A stretch of DNA of 15,439 nt. Source: Thermoflexales bacterium. Its GTDB lineage: Bacteria; Chloroflexota; Anaerolineae; Fen-1058. A model generated the notes under the pieces. The model did not search any database, was not told the origin of the DNA, and saw only the letters and a list, made by a program, of their open reading frames with translations. Of the stretch, positions 1,933-15,439 are shown one piece after another. Each line of letters starts with the position of its first letter. The first letter of the stretch is position 1. Position numbers and translations under genes: made by a program. The stretch lies in contig JAUQXD010001078.1 in the NCBI GenBank assembly GCA_030834835.1, positions 1 through 15,439 on the forward strand, in the 5' to 3' direction.

Positions 1933-4230
1933 TTAGTCGGCTTTGGCAGATTTGCATGGGTTGACAGGCGCGAACCAGTCTAGCGGGATCTGCCAGACCC
2001 ATGGCTGGGTGGGAGTCTGAGCAACCTTTTGTTCGATCTGTTCCTGATCGATACCGGCCGGCTGCAAAATCGTCGCCATGGCCCGCAGCAGCAACTCCGC
2101 GTATTTTTCGACATCGTAGCCGTACGAAGCATCCATGAGATCGACTGGCCGGGCCCGAGCATGAGGATCACGTGCTTGCGCGTCGGTGATGACGTAGCGG
2201 ATGGATTCGCCGGGATGCAGGTGTACCCCGCGCTGGCTCAACTGCCGCGCCACAACCGCATTCAGGGTGTTGTGCCGATACGCTTGCGGGTCACGTGTCA
2301 GGCGATAGGTGAGGGCCAGATCGTGATAATCCACCTGTTGTGCTCGCAACTCGGCCAGGCGCTCACGGATGAGATCGATGACCTGCGGCACTTGATCGAA
2401 GAACTCCTTTCGAGTGTGGGCGACGGACAGCACATCGATGGCTTGCTGCTGCACAGCCTTGATCCACGGCGCCGTATCGCCGCGGCGCAACTCGATCCCG
2501 CGGGTCTTGATTGCCCCGTTCCGAAAGACGCCGAAGTAGCGATTGGGCACGCCGATCTTTTCATGCTCCCGCGCTGGCAGAAAAGCCACCCAGTCGTAAA
2601 CGCCTTCCAGCGCGATGGGCACCCCCGTTTTTTCGGTGATCTCGGCCAGCAATGGCGGATACTCGTCGTCGTGAGAATTTCTTTTCTTGATCCAGAGCGA
2701 ATCGATCAGCAGATGTAGAACATCAAAGCCATGGTCTTCGACGATTTCTTTCGCCTGGATGAGCACCGCGCGACCATAGGCCGTGATCGCTTCATGCGCC
2801 TCGATCTTGCCAAAGCGCGCATTCTTGTAGCCGGTATACCCAAAGCATGTGACGAGCAGCCCTTTGATGGCCTGCGAGCGCTGCCGGTAGATTTCCTGGC
2901 GCGGGCCGGCCGCCAGTTCTTTCGCCCCCAGCTTATAGCGAATGCGCTTGGCAACGAGCGGCTCCAGAGATTCAGGAATCAGCCCGCGCTGGTGGGTGCA
3001 GATCGAATAACCGATGTCCGGCACCACCGAGTTGTGACAGCAGGGGCAGTTGATGGTCTCCGGGCTGATGTTGAATTTCGCCATGATGAACGGATACATC
3101 GAGACAAAGTCGATCTCGGCGACGTTCTCATGCAGGCCCACGATCGGCCGATAAGTCAGCCCGCCCTTATCGGTGAGGATGAGCTCGCCCGCGCTTTTGA
3201 AATCCTCGGCTTCGCGTTTGTAGTAGGGGATCAGGATTTTTCGGCGATAAGCCGTCGCCGCTTCGATCGCCGAAATGCCGGTGCCCGTTGACGTGCGGGC
3301 CACTTTCTGCACGTTGAGGCCGGTGAGCCGCGCCAACTCGAAGATGCCATCCAGCCAGTAGTCACCCATCCGAAAGGCATTGTGCAGATCGATGTGCCAG
3401 CGTCCGAACAGGAGGTGCGAGGCCGAGCGATAGACGATGCGTCCATAGGAAGCGTAGGAGTAGGCCTGCCTGGAAAGGGGCGCTTGCTTCGGATCGCGGT
3501 TGAGCGGCAGGTGCATGCCATAGCGATTGGCTAACTGGATCAGTTGCGGAAGAATAAAGGAATCGCCATATTCCGAAATCAACAGATCGGGATCATACTT
3601 CTGCAAGAGTCTATTCAGCGTCCTGAGTAATTCGCGTGGATCGCTCGTGTCCAGGACACACACGCGATCTTCCGTGTGTATCTCCAGTTCGCCGCGAAAC
3701 TCGTGAGTCGGATTCGCAGCTTGCCCGGCAAGGCGCACCGACATCGTTCTTAAGGGCGGCAGCCGATACTCCAAATCCCAGCATGAGTCCTTGACCTCCA
3801 GAGCGTTTATCCAGCCGGCCGCATTCGTTTGAATCTCACAGTAGGCCAGGGGAAACAGGCCCTTCTCGAAATAGTAGAACTGGGCCGGTGAGAGATCGGC
3901 GTTGTAGTAGGTCAGTGCCGGTCGGAAGGTTCGCACGCGCGCAAAAATCGAGGCGAACAGCAGCGGGCGCAGGACCTGGACTTCGAGTAGCGTAAGGTCG
4001 CGGCGTAGAAAGAGATCGTGCCGTTCCGCGCGGCGCAGTCGGACCGGCAAATGTGCGGCGGACAGCATGACACAGACCGCGTGCAAGTCCGCGTGAGAGC
4101 CAAAGACAAAGAACGACGGTGCGACCGTATCGCGCAATTGATGCGCGACGCCTGCCGTGTCAATAACCCACACCACCAGCCCTTGTTCATCGGCATAGAC
4201 GTCAAAGATCCAACCATTGATCCGATTCAA
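1933..4230 (-). CDS. Family B DNA polymerase, exonuclease residues degenerate
   Basis: The 765-aa template-dependent polymerase has motif A DFVSMYP at 374-380. Motif B is replaced by K456..VTCFGY, without the usual Asn-Ser. Motif C is LLIDSLWIK, with D510 only. The thumb block RYFGV...IKTRGIELRR lies at 564-583. A CPCC...C cluster (395-411) after motif A may bind zinc. In canonical enzymes motif C is YGDTDS; here the first Asp is Leu and the second, the conserved metal ligand in RB69-type enzymes, is kept. In the 3'-5' exonuclease region, DPDLLISEYGDSFILP (213-228) replaces DPD...N..FD.P, so the ExoII Asp is Ile. No FD.E ExoI motif is found; MSVRLAG (163-169) occupies its place. I infer a non-proofreading polymerase suited to repair, translesion or element replication. 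The start is TTG at 4230, because the frame has a stop just upstream; it overlaps the preceding gene by 29 nt, implying translational coupling. Confidence 0.88.
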   Translation of the reverse strand: MNRINGWIFDVYADEQGLVVWVIDTAGVAHQLRDTVAPSFFVFGSHADLHAVCVMLSAAHLPVRLRRAERHDLFLRRDLTLLEVQVLRPLLFASIFARVRTFRPALTYYNADLSPAQFYYFEKGLFPLAYCEIQTNAAGWINALEVKDSCWDLEYRLPPLRTMSVRLAGQAANPTHEFRGELEIHTEDRVCVLDTSDPRELLRTLNRLLQKYDPDLLISEYGDSFILPQLIQLANRYGMHLPLNRDPKQAPLSRQAYSYASYGRIVYRSASHLLFGRWHIDLHNAFRMGDYWLDGIFELARLTGLNVQKVARTSTGTGISAIEAATAYRRKILIPYYKREAEDFKSAGELILTDKGGLTYRPIVGLHENVAEIDFVSMYPFIMAKFNISPETINCPCCHNSVVPDIGYSICTHQRGLIPESLEPLVAKRIRYKLGAKELAAGPRQEIYRQRSQAIKGLLVTCFGYTGYKNARFGKIEAHEAITAYGRAVLIQAKEIVEDHGFDVLHLLIDSLWIKKRNSHDDEYPPLLAEITEKTGVPIALEGVYDWVAFLPAREHEKIGVPNRYFGVFRNGAIKTRGIELRRGDTAPWIKAVQQQAIDVLSVAHTRKEFFDQVPQVIDLIRERLAELRAQQVDYHDLALTYRLTRDPQAYRHNTLNAVVARQLSQRGVHLHPGESIRYVITDAQARDPHARARPVDLMDASYGYDVEKYAELLLRAMATILQPAGIDQEQIEQKVAQTPTQPWVWQIPLDWFAPVNPCKSAKAD

Positions 4231-4492
4231 GGCCCTGTTGCTCCAGGAGAAATTGGATCACTTTCTGCTGATGCAGAATCAACTTGTGCTGTTCCAGCAG
4301 CATCGCAAAGAACATGATCGTCTGTGGTTCAGCCGTACCCGAATAGGCTAACGGCGCGATGTGAAATTGCGCCAGAGCAAACAGATCCGCAAACGCCTCC
4401 TGATCAGATTTACGGAGCGCGCTAAAGAACTTCGCCAGTTCCTGTTGTTGGAACCGGATCAATTGTGTGGCGGTTTCATTGGTGCGCCCCAT
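4202..4492 (-). CDS. Small helical protein between RecA-like protein and PolB
   Basis: The 96-aa product starts MGRTNETATQLIRFQQQELA. It is Gln/Leu-rich and predicted almost wholly helical, with possible coiled-coil stretches at 8-30 and 62-90 (LLEQHKLILHQQKVIQFLLE). There is no signal peptide, cysteine cluster or recognisable catalytic motif. The ATG follows the stop of the upstream gene by one base (TAA-T-ATG), and its own end overlaps the polymerase start by 29 nt. Such tight packing suggests stoichiometric co-production, for example an adaptor linking the RecA-like protein to the polymerase. I do not recognise the family; the role is inferred from position. Confidence 0.7.
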   Translation of the reverse strand: MGRTNETATQLIRFQQQELAKFFSALRKSDQEAFADLFALAQFHIAPLAYSGTAEPQTIMFFAMLLEQHKLILHQQKVIQFLLEQQGLESDQWLDL

Positions 4493-4493
4493 A

Positions 4494-5063
4494 TTATTTC
4501 CCGGCCTTGAGTCTTAACGGGATTTGCGTGGGTGATTGGAAATCCGGCTCGAGTTGCGTGACCTGGACAAAATCGGCCTGCTGCATGAGGGTCTGGATAA
4601 GCCCCTGGCGGTTGCGCGCTTTTGACGACGGTGGGCGAACAGTCACTAGAACCAGCCGCTGTTTAGATAGCGACTTGAGGCGAGCAATCACCTCCTGGAG
4701 CAGTCGCTGCGCTTCGGACCAGGCCACGTCTTCATCGTAGAACGTTCCCAGCAGCCCCAGGCAAACTATACCGGCACAGTTGACGCCGACACAGCCGGCC
4801 GTATCCACCTGTCGGCTTAAGCGCTCCACGATTGTCGCGATCTGATAACAGGTAAAGGCGCGCGACACCTGCACCTGTGCAAGGGCCAGGCGTGGATCGA
4901 GACTCATGACACGTGCGTAGCGCGCAATGAGATAGGAGCGAAACGAGTTATCGCCGTCCACGACATACAGGGGGCTGCCCAGGCCGGCCAGCCGTGCGAT
5001 CGGCTTGAAGACCAGCTCGCTCGGGATTTCGGTGCCGCAGAGGAGAGCAAGACCATTTTTCAT
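4494..5063 (-). CDS. RecA/Rad51-like core protein without a recognisable Walker A motif
   Basis: The 189-aa product starts MKNGLALLCGTEIPSELVFK. Four features resemble the RecA/RadA ATPase core: a hydrophobic strand followed by a loop where the P-loop should be; SPLYVVDGDNSFRSY (30-44); the block VSRAFTCYQIATIVERL (66-82), like the 'arA...q...ll..l' segment of RadA/Rad51; and two further hydrophobic strands, GIVCLGLLGTFYDED (about 98-112) and RLVLVTVRPP. A GxxxxGK[ST] motif is absent (GTEIPSEL at 10-17), so ATP hydrolysis is doubtful. ImuA-type RecA-like proteins partner translesion polymerases in mutasome cassettes and offer a functional analogy, not a demonstrated homology. The start ATG has no good Shine-Dalgarno sequence. 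It is first in a coupled unit with the 96-aa protein and PolB. Confidence 0.6.
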   Translation of the reverse strand: MKNGLALLCGTEIPSELVFKPIARLAGLGSPLYVVDGDNSFRSYLIARYARVMSLDPRLALAQVQVSRAFTCYQIATIVERLSRQVDTAGCVGVNCAGIVCLGLLGTFYDEDVAWSEAQRLLQEVIARLKSLSKQRLVLVTVRPPSSKARNRQGLIQTLMQQADFVQVTQLEPDFQSPTQIPLRLKAGK

Positions 5064-5219
5064 ACGAACAATCTAGCACAGACTGAGCGCGCACACACTC
5101 AGCTTGAGTAGGGAAAAGGCGGGGATCAGGCCTGTACAAAGGTAGGGGAGTCAAACAAAGACGGCGTGAAAGTGAACGACGGCGGCTTAAGCGGGCCATC
5201 ATCTCGTTGAGGCGGACAA

Positions 5220-5579
5220 TTATTCAAGCATCGTCCATTCTCGAGAACCGCCGGGGGGCAGGGTGGCTAATAAGGCCAGCAGCTGCCGGCTCGATTGAAC
5301 TTCAAATTTTCCCAGGATGTTGGTCATGTTCCACTTGACCGTGGTGACGGCAATCCCTAACTCTTGAGCGATTTCTTTGTTCGAGTACCCTTTGCGGAGT
5401 AGGCGCACGATTTCGACCTCGCGCGGTGTTAAGTCGGGGACCGACCTGGTCAATTTCATTTGATATTGCGTAGCCGGCGCGTCCAAGGTAACAATACGTG
5501 TTGGGCTTGTGGTTTCTGCGTCCGACCGCCTACGTTTGTTGCCTTGAGACACTCTCTGAAGCCACTGTCGTAGTGACAC
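5220..5579 (-). CDS. Stand-alone LuxR/GerE-type transcriptional regulator
   Basis: The 119-aa protein has a C-terminal LuxR helix-turn-helix at about 50-107: LTPREVEIVRLL..G.SN.EIA..L.I...TVK....NI..K. The N-terminal 49 residues are basic and low-complexity, with no receiver or ligand-binding domain, so it resembles a bare DNA-binding module. I chose the GTG at 5579, not the TTG at 5618, for two reasons. The TTG lies upstream of the predicted transcription start, and the GTG has GAAGGGGG a few bases before it. It precedes the RecA-like/small/PolB unit on the same strand by 156 bp and is a plausible regulator of that unit and of itself. In the recognition helix, TTVKWNMTNI has Trp-Asn where the common pattern is K.H...I. 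Confidence 0.85.
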   Translation of the reverse strand: MSLRQWLQRVSQGNKRRRSDAETTSPTRIVTLDAPATQYQMKLTRSVPDLTPREVEIVRLLRKGYSNKEIAQELGIAVTTVKWNMTNILGKFEVQSSRQLLALLATLPPGGSREWTMLE

Positions 5580-5603: not shown

Positions 5604-5632
5604 ATTATATACGCACAAATGTTCTATGTCAA
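5604..5632 (-). promoter_or_regulatory. Consensus sigma-70 promoter of the LuxR-type regulator
   Basis: The minus strand reads TTGACA, 17 nt, TATAAT: a perfect match to the consensus in both boxes with ideal spacing. The predicted start is near 5597, leaving an 18-nt leader. It is the strongest promoter in the window by sequence. A gene with such a promoter normally needs repression, in line with the inverted repeat at its start site. Confidence 0.85.
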
Positions 5633-12074: not shown

Positions 12075-12230
12075 CACCCATCCCGCCTCATATCGAGGCT
12101 TCATTGGAGGACACCTATTGATCTCAACGGAGGCAGCGTAGTCCAACGCGGGTCTTGATCGCCGTCGATGACGATCGGGATCGTGTAACACACTTCATCG
12201 ACCACATCTCAAACGGAGGGAATGCTTCAC

Positions 12231-13031
12231 ATGGACGAGCAACTGTTTGACTTCACGACAGCCAAAACCGTCACCGGCTTCACGCTCGAGCAAGTCATTG
12301 CTGAGATGCAGAAGCCGTTGCCGGCGTCGGCGTATAAACCCGTGCCGGGTGCCAGCGATCTGACCGACATCGATCCGGCCTATCTGACCGAGGTCGCGAC
12401 GAAGATCTTCGGACCGATCGGCTTCGGGTGGTGGTATGACTTCGCGCCGGCCGATCTGACGATCACCGCCGAGGCGCGCACCGCCAAATCGGGCCGCGAG
12501 TACACCGTCTACACCGCCTCGCTGCACAAGTTGATCGTGCGCTATCGCTTGATCGACGCGAGCGGCAAGGTGTTGATCAGCGAGCCGATTACGGCGACGG
12601 GCGGCAACGACAATGAGGTGGAGTCGTATGCCGTGCGCGGCGCGCTGACCAATGCGATCGGCGCGGCCTTCGCCAAGCTGACCTGGCAGCTGCCCGTCTA
12701 CAAAGGGCAGTTGTCGCACCGCAATGCGGCGACCTTCGGCGACAAGAAGCCGGCGACCGCCAAATCAGCGGCGACGGCCCGGTCTGCCACAGCAACCGAT
12801 GCCGCGCCGGAGTCAGCTGGTAGCAACGGTCACGATGCCGAGCTGGAGGCGCTGCTCAACTTCGTCATCCCGCCCGCAATCCAGAGCAAGCATGCGGGCA
12901 AGAAGTTGAGCGAGGTGTCGGCGCAGGTGCTGGAATGGTACGCGACCAAGATGGCGGTCACCACGCCTGAATCGCAGGTGCTCAAGGATAAGGCGGCGGC
13001 GTTGCTGGCTTTGCAGCTGCAGCCCGCCTAG
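12231..13031 (+). CDS. Rad52/Rad22-like single-strand annealing protein
   Basis: The 266-aa product has the Rad52-type core in its first about 160 residues: MQKPLPASAYKPVPG (26-40), DIDPAYLTEVATKIFGPIGFGWWYDF (46-71 region), a strand series, then TGGNDNE and YAVRGALTNAIGAAFAKLTW (about 133-152), matching the 'gGsd.E..AyRgAlt.AigrA....g' helix of Rad52-like annealers. Such proteins bind ssDNA as rings and anneal complementary strands. An Ala/Lys/Thr/Ser-rich linker (about 168-202) joins a C-terminal helical domain ending LQLQPA. The start at 12231 is preferred because GGAGGG lies 10 nt upstream; the in-frame ATG at 12222 has only 1-2 nt spacing. It is first gene of the recombination cassette. 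Confidence 0.75.
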   Translation: MDEQLFDFTTAKTVTGFTLEQVIAEMQKPLPASAYKPVPGASDLTDIDPAYLTEVATKIFGPIGFGWWYDFAPADLTITAEARTAKSGREYTVYTASLHKLIVRYRLIDASGKVLISEPITATGGNDNEVESYAVRGALTNAIGAAFAKLTWQLPVYKGQLSHRNAATFGDKKPATAKSAATARSATATDAAPESAGSNGHDAELEALLNFVIPPAIQSKHAGKKLSEVSAQVLEWYATKMAVTTPESQVLKDKAAALLALQLQPA

Positions 13032-13039
13032 CCGACAAC

Positions 13040-13092
13040 CACGTGTGAGTGCAATCACACGTGTGATCGCGATCCCGCGGGATCGCACTCAC
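13040..13092. repeat. Nested perfect palindromes between annealing protein and nuclease genes
   Basis: Outer arms GTGAGTGC (13045-13052) and GCACTCAC (13085-13092) enclose two perfect palindromes: ATCACACGTGTGAT (13054-13067) and an 18-bp GCGATCCCGCGGGATCGC (13069-13086, sharing two bases with the outer arm). CACGTGTGA/TCACACGTG (13040-13048 with 13055-13063) is an alternative pairing. The region can extrude as a cruciform or fold as a three-way junction in RNA. It ends 6 bp before the GGAGGG of the nuclease gene. It may be an operator pair, an mRNA-processing structure, or a junction-forming site recognised by the cassette's own proteins. Confidence 0.7.
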
Positions 13093-13110
13093 GCCTATGG
13101 AGGGAATGCT

Positions 13111-14055
13111 ATGCCCCTGAGCGGGTTTATCTGCGATGCGCTGGACGCGCCGATCGCGGTGACGGACTGCCTGGCCTGCGCGCGTCAAGGCGCGCTGCCG
13201 GGCTGTCATCAGACTGCACCCGTGATTGCCGGCATCCTGCGCGGCTTGCGGCCCGATGATCCGGCCGCGGCGCTTCAAGCGGGGCTGGGCCTCACCGTCA
13301 CCACGTTGATCAGCTGTGTGCGCAAAGCGCGGTTGATGCGGAACACCACGTACTGGCTGAAGCCCGCGCATGCCTACTGGGCGTATCGCGGGCAGCTTAT
13401 GCACGGTGTCGCCGCCCAGTATGCTGCTGAGGCAGAACAGATCGTTGCGGAACAGCGGTTCGCGATGACGGTAAGCCTGGCAGATGGTCAGCGGATCCAC
13501 GTCACCGGTCAACCAGATCTGGTGCTCGTTGATCGAAGACATGTGATTGATTTCAAAACGACCAAGAGTGTGCCCACGCACTGGCGCAGATACATCTGTC
13601 CCGAAACGGATCAACTGATCAGTGAAGGCCTGTATGCTCTGCGTCGCAAGTGGATCGAGTGTCCACACTGCGCCCCTGGCCGGCATGAAGTCAAAACGAT
13701 CGAAGTCACCAGCGAGCCGCGCGCCAAGCTGCATCATGTGCTGCAGCTCAGCCTGTATCGCCTGCTGTTACATCGCAACGGTCTTGAAGTGGAGACCGGG
13801 GAAATCATCTATCAGGACATGGATACGCAGTGCCGGGTCGCCGTCGACTTGCTGTCGTTGGTGGATACGGAGCGCTACCTGATGGAGCGGGTGACGTTGG
13901 CAGCACAGGCGGAGTTGCCGCCGATCTTGATCGACGAAGCCGAACTCTGGCAATGCGGGTTTTGTCCTGCCCGCGACGAATGTGAACGAATCCATGGCGG
14001 CCCGGTTGGTAAGGCCGCTCAACCTAAAACTATCAATCCACTGGAGGAAGTGTAA
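13111..14055 (+). CDS. Cas4-like PD-(D/E)XK nuclease with Fe-S cluster cysteines
   Basis: The 314-aa protein has the RecB/Cas4 nuclease pattern. Motif I is RGQLMHG (93-99, His98), motif II GQPD (133-136, Asp136), motif III VIDFKTTK (145-152, Asp147 and Lys149), followed by QLSLY (212-216), the Q-x3-Y motif of the RecB family. Cys69 (LISCVRKARL) with C282, C285 and C291 (CGFCPARDEC) matches the four-cysteine [4Fe-4S] arrangement of Cas4/AddB. Extra cysteines C20, C23 and C32 near the N-terminus, and CPHC at 184-187, may form zinc sites. There is no CRISPR array nearby, so end resection for recombination is the likelier role. GGAGGG lies 6 nt before the ATG; upstream in-frame codons pass through the palindromes and are not used. 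It overlaps the SSB gene by one base. Confidence 0.85.
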   Translation: MPLSGFICDALDAPIAVTDCLACARQGALPGCHQTAPVIAGILRGLRPDDPAAALQAGLGLTVTTLISCVRKARLMRNTTYWLKPAHAYWAYRGQLMHGVAAQYAAEAEQIVAEQRFAMTVSLADGQRIHVTGQPDLVLVDRRHVIDFKTTKSVPTHWRRYICPETDQLISEGLYALRRKWIECPHCAPGRHEVKTIEVTSEPRAKLHHVLQLSLYRLLLHRNGLEVETGEIIYQDMDTQCRVAVDLLSLVDTERYLMERVTLAAQAELPPILIDEAELWQCGFCPARDECERIHGGPVGKAAQPKTINPLEEV

Positions 14056-14495
14056 TGTCGACTGCAACTGCTGCACCCACCAAGCGAACGAACACCACAG
14101 CGAAGCCGACCGACAAGAAGTCGCCGCCCATGAACCTGTTCACCGGCATCGGCCGGCTCGGTCAAGAGCCGGCGCTGCGCTACTCCGGCGAGGGCCGCGC
14201 CTGGTGCGCGACTTCACTAGCGATCTTTCAAGGCGAAGACAAAGAGCCGATCTGGTTGAAGCTCAAGGCCTTCGCCAAACCGCTGGACAAAGGCGGCTGG
14301 GACGAAGGCGTGCCCCTGGCGCTGGCCGAACTGAAGAAAGGCCAGAAGGTCAGCGTGCGCGGCAAGTTGTTCTGCGACAAGCGCGACTACAAGGGCAAGG
14401 AATACGTTGATTGGGGTCTGGTGCTGTATGCGGTCCCGGCTCCGGTCGCGGATGATGCGCCGGCCAGCGCTGACGCAGGCGATGAGCCTGATTAG
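14055..14495 (+). CDS. ssb: Single-stranded DNA-binding protein (SSB)
   Basis: The 146-aa product has one OB fold: NLFTGIGRLGQEPALRYSGE (27-46), WCATSLAIF, IWLKLKAFAKPLD (66-78) and KKGQKVSVRGKLFCDKRDYKGKEY (94-117) follow the usual SSB strand order. A 25-residue Lys/Thr/Ala-rich extension precedes the fold, which is unusual. The tail is short and acidic (VADDAPASADAGDEPD) but lacks the terminal Asp-Ile-Pro-Phe that recruits partner proteins in housekeeping SSBs. An element-encoded or recombination-specific SSB fits. GGAGGAAG precedes the ATG, which overlaps the nuclease stop (TAATG). Proposed role: coats ssDNA for the Rad52-like annealer. Confidence 0.9.
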   Translation: MSTATAAPTKRTNTTAKPTDKKSPPMNLFTGIGRLGQEPALRYSGEGRAWCATSLAIFQGEDKEPIWLKLKAFAKPLDKGGWDEGVPLALAELKKGQKVSVRGKLFCDKRDYKGKEYVDWGLVLYAVPAPVADDAPASADAGDEPD

Positions 14496-14530
14496 TCTCA
14501 AGCGATCACAACTGAAGCAGTATCACACCG

Positions 14531-14557
14531 GAAGGGGATGTGTTGAACATCCCCTTC
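14531..14557 (+). promoter_or_regulatory. Perfect hairpin between SSB and the resolvase-like gene
   Basis: GAAGGGGATGT (14531-14541) and ACATCCCCTTC (14547-14557) form an 11-bp perfect stem with a 5-nt loop. The downstream bases TGCATTCTC are not a U-run. It ends 13 nt before the GGAGGAAG of the next gene. It may limit read-through or stabilise the SSB mRNA so that SSB is made in excess over the resolvase and RuvB. Confidence 0.55.
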
Positions 14558-14579
14558 TGCATTCTCAAATGGAGGAAGT

Positions 14580-14882
14580 ATGACGCCCTATCAACGCGGG
14601 GCGCGCCTCGAATACCTGGCGCGTGACGTCTTGCGACAACGCGGTTACAGCGTGGTACGCAGCGCGGGCTCGCATGGCGCGATCGATCTGGTCGCCTTGA
14701 ATGAGCGCGAGCTGTTGCTCATTCAAGTGAAGCAGAGTGGTCAGCCGGTTGGAGCTGCGCTCAACAAACTGAGTGAGGTGCCGGGACCGCGCGGCACGCG
14801 GCGGCAGGTGTGGGTCTATCACCGGGCATGCGGCCGGACCACCGCCCGCTGGGAAATCATCCAGTCAAAGCGGAGGCCGTGA
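14580..14882 (+). CDS. Hjc-like PD-(D/E)XK Holliday junction resolvase/nuclease
   Basis: The 100-aa product shows the archaeal-Hjc-type fold: YQRGARLEYLARDVL (4-18, Glu11), RSAGSHGAIDLVAL (27-40, Asp36), LLLIQVKQ (45-52, Gln49 and Lys51). Classical Hjc has E-V-K where this has Q-V-K, as do several small phage and actinobacterial relatives I recall. Expected activity is structure-specific cleavage of four-way junctions or flaps. The C-terminal half (RRQVWVYHRACGRTTARWEI) closes the fold. GGAGGAAGT precedes the ATG closely. It lies directly before ruvB (stop TGA followed by ATG without a gap), which pairs a branch-migration motor with a non-RuvC nuclease. Confidence 0.75.
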   Translation: MTPYQRGARLEYLARDVLRQRGYSVVRSAGSHGAIDLVALNERELLLIQVKQSGQPVGAALNKLSEVPGPRGTRRQVWVYHRACGRTTARWEIIQSKRRP

Positions 14883-15439
14883 ATGACGTCCGTCAGCACA
14901 GCCTACACCCTGACCCCGGCGCAGCAGCCGGGTGAAGCGCCGCTGGAGATCAGCCTGCGCCCCAAAGCGCTGACTGAGTTCGTCGGACATGATCACATCA
15001 AAGGCGGTCTCGGCCTGATCCTGGCTGCGGCCAGGCGTCGCGATGAGCCGGTCGATCACATCCTGTTTCACGGCCCGCCCGGCACCGGCAAGACTACGCT
15101 GTCGGGCATCATCGCGAACGAGATCGGCGCGCCGATGCGTGAACTCTCCGCACCCGCGCTGCAAAAAGTCGGTGATCTGGCCGCGGTGCTGGTCGCGCTC
15201 GATCGTAAGAGCGTCCTGTTTCTGGATGAAATCCATCGCTTGAAAACTGAAGTGGCTGAAACCCTGTATGCCGCGATGGAAGACTTTCACCTGTCGATCA
15301 TGAGCGGGCGCGGCGAGAGCGCCGCGGTGGTCTCGCTGGATCTCCAACGCTTCACGCTGGTCGGCGCGACGACCGAATTCGGTTCGCTGCCCGCGCCGCT
15401 GCGCGATCGGTTCGGGCAGGTCTTTGCCCTCGATCTGTA
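14883..15439 (+). CDS. ruvB: RuvB-type Holliday junction branch-migration ATPase (partial, 3' end beyond window)
   Basis: 185 residues are visible of a family usually near 340. LRPKALTEFVGHDHIK (25-40) is the RuvB entry motif (LRP..l.e.iGQ). Walker A is GPPGTGKTT (64-72), Walker B VLFLDEIHRL (111-120), sensor 1 GATT (161-164), then PLRDRFG (172-178). In typical RuvB an Arg follows GATT (GATTR.G.L..PLR.RFG); here it is Glu (GATTEFGSLPAPLR). RuvB also usually reads GPPGLGKTT. These departures suggest a lineage distinct from the housekeeping gene. The lid/helical domain and the C-terminal winged helix lie outside the window. No ruvA or ruvC is adjacent. The GGAGG in the end of the preceding gene serves as ribosome binding site. 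Confidence 0.88.
   Translation, partial: MTSVSTAYTLTPAQQPGEAPLEISLRPKALTEFVGHDHIKGGLGLILAAARRRDEPVDHILFHGPPGTGKTTLSGIIANEIGAPMRELSAPALQKVGDLAAVLVALDRKSVLFLDEIHRLKTEVAETLYAAMEDFHLSIMSGRGESAAVVSLDLQRFTLVGATTEFGSLPAPLRDRFGQVFALDL

Follow-up and report, generated by a model that had tools for sequence, protein, structure and literature searches.

The locus described here is best explained as the operon for a PolB2 mutasome in a member of the Chloroflexota, one that is probably induced by DNA damage. On the minus strand of the window, the whole 15,439-nt stretch of DNA that was analysed, four genes lie in the order of transcription luxR, iRadA, PPB2 and PolB2 (Table 1). The spacing between iRadA and PPB2 is 1 bp, and PolB2 starts with a TTG codon within PPB2, at a place where several homologs start with Met. 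The GTG start of luxR was reassigned from the sequence, the start in the list of open reading frames being TTG 5618. The PolB2-iRadA-PPB2 system is itself already known; what is new, as far as searched, is an operon in Chloroflexota that is led by a LuxR-type gene and carries a LexA-type box. Neither LuxR genes nor a LexA box of Chloroflexota PolB2 operons were found in the titles and abstracts of the open-licence literature that was searched.

Table 1. Features of the PolB2 locus, with positions in the window.
Feature	Position	Strand	Description
PolB2	1933..4230	-	765 aa, polymerase of family B whose exonuclease domain has decayed
PPB2	4202..4492	-	96 aa, begins MGRT
iRadA	4494..5063	-	189 aa, ATPase core of the RadA/RAD51 type, lacking Walker A
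Non-coding stretch upstream of iRadA	5064..5149	-	Possible second control element; one genome pair
LuxR-type (GerE) HTH gene	5220..5579	-	119 aa from GTG 5579; first gene of the operon
luxR promoter TTGACA-17-TATAAT	5604..5632	-	LexA-type box inside the spacer
LexA-type box GAACATTTGTGC	5613..5624	-	One mismatch to GAAC-N4-GTTC

The initial annotation had considered an independently evolved complex. The unit is not new in this sense and belongs to the PolB2-iRadA-PPB2 family, since its arrangement and motifs match those described in PMC11791011 and the gene link is given in PMC4104785. The three genes were linked in 2014, when bacterial lexA neighbours were also reported (Makarova et al., PMC4104785), and were modelled as a mutasome in 2025, the proposed complex being a heteropentamer, PolB2-iRadA-PPB2(3) (Timinskas et al., PMC11791011); the PolB2 group is also named in a 2026 survey of bacterial polymerases (PMC12926913). 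With the bacterial PolB2 mutasome the window shares the gene order, the MGRT start of PPB2, a DK motif before the palm, a motif C without its first Asp, the decayed exonuclease, the Walker-less iRadA and, possibly, a clamp-like iRadA tail. It differs at the head of the operon, where the window has the LuxR-type gene with the LexA-type box and Nitrospirota have lexA. The main text of PMC11791011 contains 0 occurrences of LuxR and 0 of Chloroflex.

From an alignment search with PolB2, the best 80 of 529 relatives were kept; the titles of their contigs name bacteria of several phyla. Eleven of the 80 loci were set aside as short, and in 66 of the 69 loci with at least 1100 nt upstream, iRadA, PPB2 and PolB2 occur in the same order and on the same strand. 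One of the 66, L009, has a weak and partial iRadA match (E 0.0022), and the short loci L025, L057 and L072 do contain all three genes. In the PolB2 relatives L040, L047 and L084, neither iRadA nor PPB2 was found upstream despite sufficient sequence. The suggestion that the three genes belong together, for which co-occurrence across genomes had been named beforehand as a test, is thus borne out.

The polymerase gave a Pfam match to DNA_pol_B. Among the best 80 of 529 relatives, the Asp of motif A and the second Asp of motif C are retained in all 80 loci, and the first Asp of motif C is replaced in all 80. Compared with E. coli Pol II, the ExoII Asp is missing and the ExoIII residues are gapped in the same 80 of 80 loci; ExoI is less clear, with Asp in 1/80 and Glu or Asp at the Glu column in 41/80. 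The loss of exonuclease residues and the retention of motif A and of one motif C Asp, both noted in the initial annotation, therefore extend to these relatives, ExoI being the less certain part. A DKGG element precedes motif A, and in 14 sequences its D354 is invariant and its K355 is kept in at least 90%; judged by position, these two residues would correspond to the published D(K/R) motif. A predicted structure of PolB2 (mean pLDDT 72.1, pTM 0.53, 13 sequences) was set aside as too weak.

For iRadA, the Pfam match to Rad51 was below threshold, and the fold check showed the RadA/RAD51 core fold, without an N-terminal domain, rather than an unrelated fold. Walker A is absent, as read from the sequence. 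The 189-aa protein is an inactivated member of the RecA family, as its initial description as a Walker-less RecA-like protein had implied. Among 400 genomes of the phylum, 24 gave an iRadA match, the genome of the window being one of them and L133 being an unconfirmed case. The phylum was taken as Chloroflexota because the iRadA of L003, a genome of the window's class, is the same as that of L010, whose contig is titled Chloroflexi. Some PolB2 mutasomes, but not all, have been described as carrying a C-terminal clamp-binding motif on iRadA or on PolB2 (PMC11791011). The window iRadA ends in QIPLRLKAGK, in which QIPLRL resembles a beta-clamp-binding peptide, and iRadA ends of the form Q-x-x-L-F, once with one residue more, were counted by eye in 25 of 45 Chloroflexota loci. 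A looser scripted tail pattern, which missed the type of tail found in the window, matched 32 of the 45. These tails suggest that the Chloroflexota proteins may use the clamp.

The motif MGRT of PPB2 is described in PMC11791011, where the fold of the protein is given as sigma-factor-like. The window PPB2 begins MGRTNETATQ, and exact MGRT was found in 64 of 72 PPB2 loci and in 15 of 15 aligned homologs. Pfam family PF26485 is present in all 37 PPB2 homologs listed, and the window protein gave a weak, sub-threshold MiaE match alone. The HTH part of the LuxR proteins matched Sigma70_r4_2 in 21 of 23 cases. A split sigma factor made of PPB2 and the LuxR HTH was considered and set aside, because archaea have PPB2 as well and because HTH domains are similar to one another.

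The ImuA-ImuB-DnaE2 mutasome combines the C-family polymerase DnaE2 with the Y-family protein ImuB. The analogy with this system drawn in the initial annotation was apt, as the window unit shares with it, and with Pol V (UmuD'2C-RecA), a polymerase, a RecA-family protein, a further partner and, probably, the link to SOS. However, its polymerase is of family B, its RecA-like part is RadA-type and inactive, and its third component is small and helical. The genome has one Y-family (IMS) match, and this is located on a different contig, C268. The unit is thus an analog of these mutasomes, which it would resemble in its working, and not a member. The function of bacterial PolB2 is deduced from an archaeal relative and from published models. 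That relative, Sulfolobus Dpo2, shares with the window protein the polymerase group, the lack of proofreading and, probably, damage-linked expression, and differs in being archaeal and in its length of 555 aa (PMC7390963) as opposed to 765 aa. Dpo2 lacks an exonuclease and is able to extend ends that are mispaired (PMC8764526), and it is reported to be damage-inducible and responsible for targeted mutagenesis (PMC7390963).

We next turned to the control region. In the window, GAACATTTGTGC sits between the -35 and -10 elements of the luxR promoter and departs by one mismatch from GAAC-N4-GTTC, the LexA motif of Gram-positive bacteria according to PMC3323433. This motif would also hold in Chloroflexota, and it is probably the LexA operator of the genome studied here, since three exact copies adjoin the two lexA genes of the genome and a further one precedes the Y-family polymerase match, starting 66 nt before it. 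Two different lexA genes stand in tandem (C1035:3159-4178), with two boxes before the first and one before the second; no exact box was found at the recA locus. Genome-wide, exact boxes are not enriched (45, against 45 for a reversed control pattern), so the boxes carry weight by position alone; this equality slightly lowered our confidence in the preferred reading. A degenerate nested-promoter pattern that tolerates the mismatch of the window matched at two places in 6.48 Mb, namely in the window and in the lexA promoter, and its control matched once. In L002, a genome of the same family, the promoter is laid out in the same way and its box is exact.

In all 28 luxR-headed loci (27 relatives and the window), luxR is preceded by a box that has no more than one mismatch, and in 23 of them this box is exact. 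Boxes of this quality have a background of 0.13 per 330 nt, which would give about 4 of 28 loci by chance, and an isolated site of this kind is not unusual. The head regions of 13/22 and 16/24 Chloroflexota loci of two sets contain exact boxes, where resampled sequence gave 0.18 and 0.23; among loci of other phyla, 1/47 contains one. The strict nested promoter, with fixed spacing and an exact box, is present in 3/22 and 4/24 head regions and a looser form in 5 and 13, which indicates that the promoter geometry varies between loci. Boxes in both places, before luxR and before iRadA, were found in 4 of the 28 loci alone, so this arrangement is not general. The GAAC-N4-GTGC variant of the window was also seen near the iRadA start in L008 and L011 and before luxR in L013. 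Its recurrence in other genomes suggests that this variant may be functional and not a product of decay.

A LuxR-type gene heads the operon in 9/22 Chloroflexota loci and in 18/24 of the second set, which amounts to 27 of 45 distinct loci, the window not counted. All aligned LuxR proteins (23/23) matched GerE. The initial annotation had placed a stand-alone LuxR-type regulator with a consensus promoter before the trio; the gene is indeed there, and it is not just adjacent to the trio but heads the operon in many Chloroflexota, behind a LexA-type box. Among the loci compared, L003, L119 and L122 were dropped as duplicates of L010, L004 and L005; L133, with its unconfirmed iRadA, and L117, whose iRadA is the same as that of L050, were also dropped; the close pairs L112/L114, L005/L120 and L123/L134 (iRadA 94-96% identical) were retained, and L121 and L134 come from one genome. 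Within the 80 relatives, a LexA-like gene lies directly upstream on the same strand in 12 loci, all titled Nitrospirota, two of them from one bin (Manganitrophaceae are taken by us to be members of Nitrospirota), and on the opposite strand in 7 further loci titled Ignavibacteria or Ignavibacteriae. The search for LexA and LuxR genes relied on small profiles built for this analysis, and diverged copies may therefore be missed in these counts.

With respect to the role of this fourth gene, we tentatively propose that the Chloroflexota PolB2 mutasome gained a LexA-controlled LuxR protein that would tune or delay the polymerase through a second element before iRadA, giving a two-step SOS switch; we hold this as a possibility somewhat short of an even chance. 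The 86-nt stretch directly before iRadA is a possible candidate for such an element, being identical to L002 at 70 of 86 positions, as compared with 34 of 70 over the remainder of the gap between luxR and iRadA in this one genome pair. Among the 18 of 25 loci covered, L010 and L080 have terminator-like repeats in this gap, and some further loci have palindromes. It is comparably plausible, again with less than even confidence, that luxR is a passenger that shares the LexA-controlled promoter and does not regulate iRadA, PPB2 and PolB2. The N-termini of the LuxR proteins differ widely between loci, some looking membrane-anchored and some having a longer domain in an alignment inspected by eye, and no luxR lies upstream in 18/45 loci, at least one of which is on a contig that ends too soon. 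Moreover, six of these 18 (L012, L022, L026, L038, L113 and L125) have an exact box near the iRadA start instead. The conserved position and strand of luxR in the 27 loci and the window argue the other way, as does the finding that all nine LuxR-like matches among the 22 loci of the first set are directly upstream on the same strand. The luxR DNA is also more similar to L002 in its HTH half (140/151 identical) than in its N-terminal half (105/150).

Copies of the system were also found in phage sequences. The Leptospira phage record KF114879 (L006:4198-7454), as well as L089 and L090, carries a complete iRadA-PPB2-PolB2 trio; the record annotates a 55-aa protein where a longer frame (4730-5014, 94 aa) starts MGRT. 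One IMG/VR contig (L087:5741-8379) has PPB2 and PolB2, with iRadA not found, and another (L088:5968-8460) has PolB2 with neither partner found and with neighbours that look phage-like. Of 22 phage records with a PolB match, four, all from Leptospira phages, match over 80% or more of the query, and one of the four was examined; the other 18 cover 18-53% and were taken as ordinary family B polymerases. Neither phage nor virus is mentioned in the main text of PMC11791011. Elsewhere in the window, a Phd/YefM-type antitoxin gene lies at 527-748, and two related small proteins (40 and 42 aa), which have a single hydrophobic stretch apiece and the common tail RRQPI(N/D)DRL, are encoded in tandem on the plus strand (1102-1224 and 1349-1477). 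The plus strand at 12222-15437 encodes a protein with a weak match to a phage exonuclease family, a PD-(D/E)XK nuclease, an SSB, an Hjc-like nuclease and, as read from the sequence, the start of RuvB.

Given the phage-borne trio in the Leptospira phage LE1 record, the PolB2 genes on IMG/VR contigs and the separate recombination-gene cluster of the window, the trio could be the replication module of an integrated element and not a damage-response operon of the host. We consider this very improbable, since Pfam scanning of a part of the window ORFs revealed no phage structural or integrase family, the 80 best of 529 relatives are on contigs whose titles name bacteria from several phyla, and the luxR promoter resembles the lexA promoter. 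Likewise, a tblastn search of 50,697 phage records gave no match to the window iRadA, although it missed a diverged relative, as the Leptospira phage copy exists. The element-replication option of the initial annotation thus gained little support. A catalytically dead PolB2 that serves as a scaffold or regulator alone, the first proposal made for the family, is slightly less remote and still improbable. Inactivity was predicted early (PMC4104785), and the substitution of the first motif C Asp throughout the best 80 of 529 relatives would fit it. However, the motif A Asp and the second motif C Asp are kept in the same 80 loci, and robust polymerase activity is reported for Dpo2 (PMC8764526), in which the first motif C Asp is likewise missing (PMC7390963).

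Under the preferred reading, a damage-induced PolB2 mutasome, LexA bound to the box between -35 and -10 would block the luxR promoter. By comparison with other bacteria, DNA damage would lead through RecA to cleavage of LexA and so free the promoter, whereupon luxR, iRadA, PPB2 and PolB2 would be made, either on a single transcript or with a second promoter upstream of iRadA contributing. PolB2, whose sequence lacks the proofreading residues, would then extend primer ends past lesions. Following the published models and archaeal Dpo2, it would be held by iRadA and a PPB2 trimer with the MGRT arm reaching the active site, and the beta clamp would perhaps be engaged through the iRadA tail. From its position, LuxR is a probable modulator of its own operon or of a few damage genes.

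How bacteria switch on the PolB2 mutasome had earlier been inferred from the presence of lexA next to it. With a LexA-type box in the core promoter and a luxR gene in the place that lexA takes in Nitrospirota, the control of this mutagenic machine becomes directly testable, and if LuxR does serve as a second switch, it would add an unusual layer to the SOS response.
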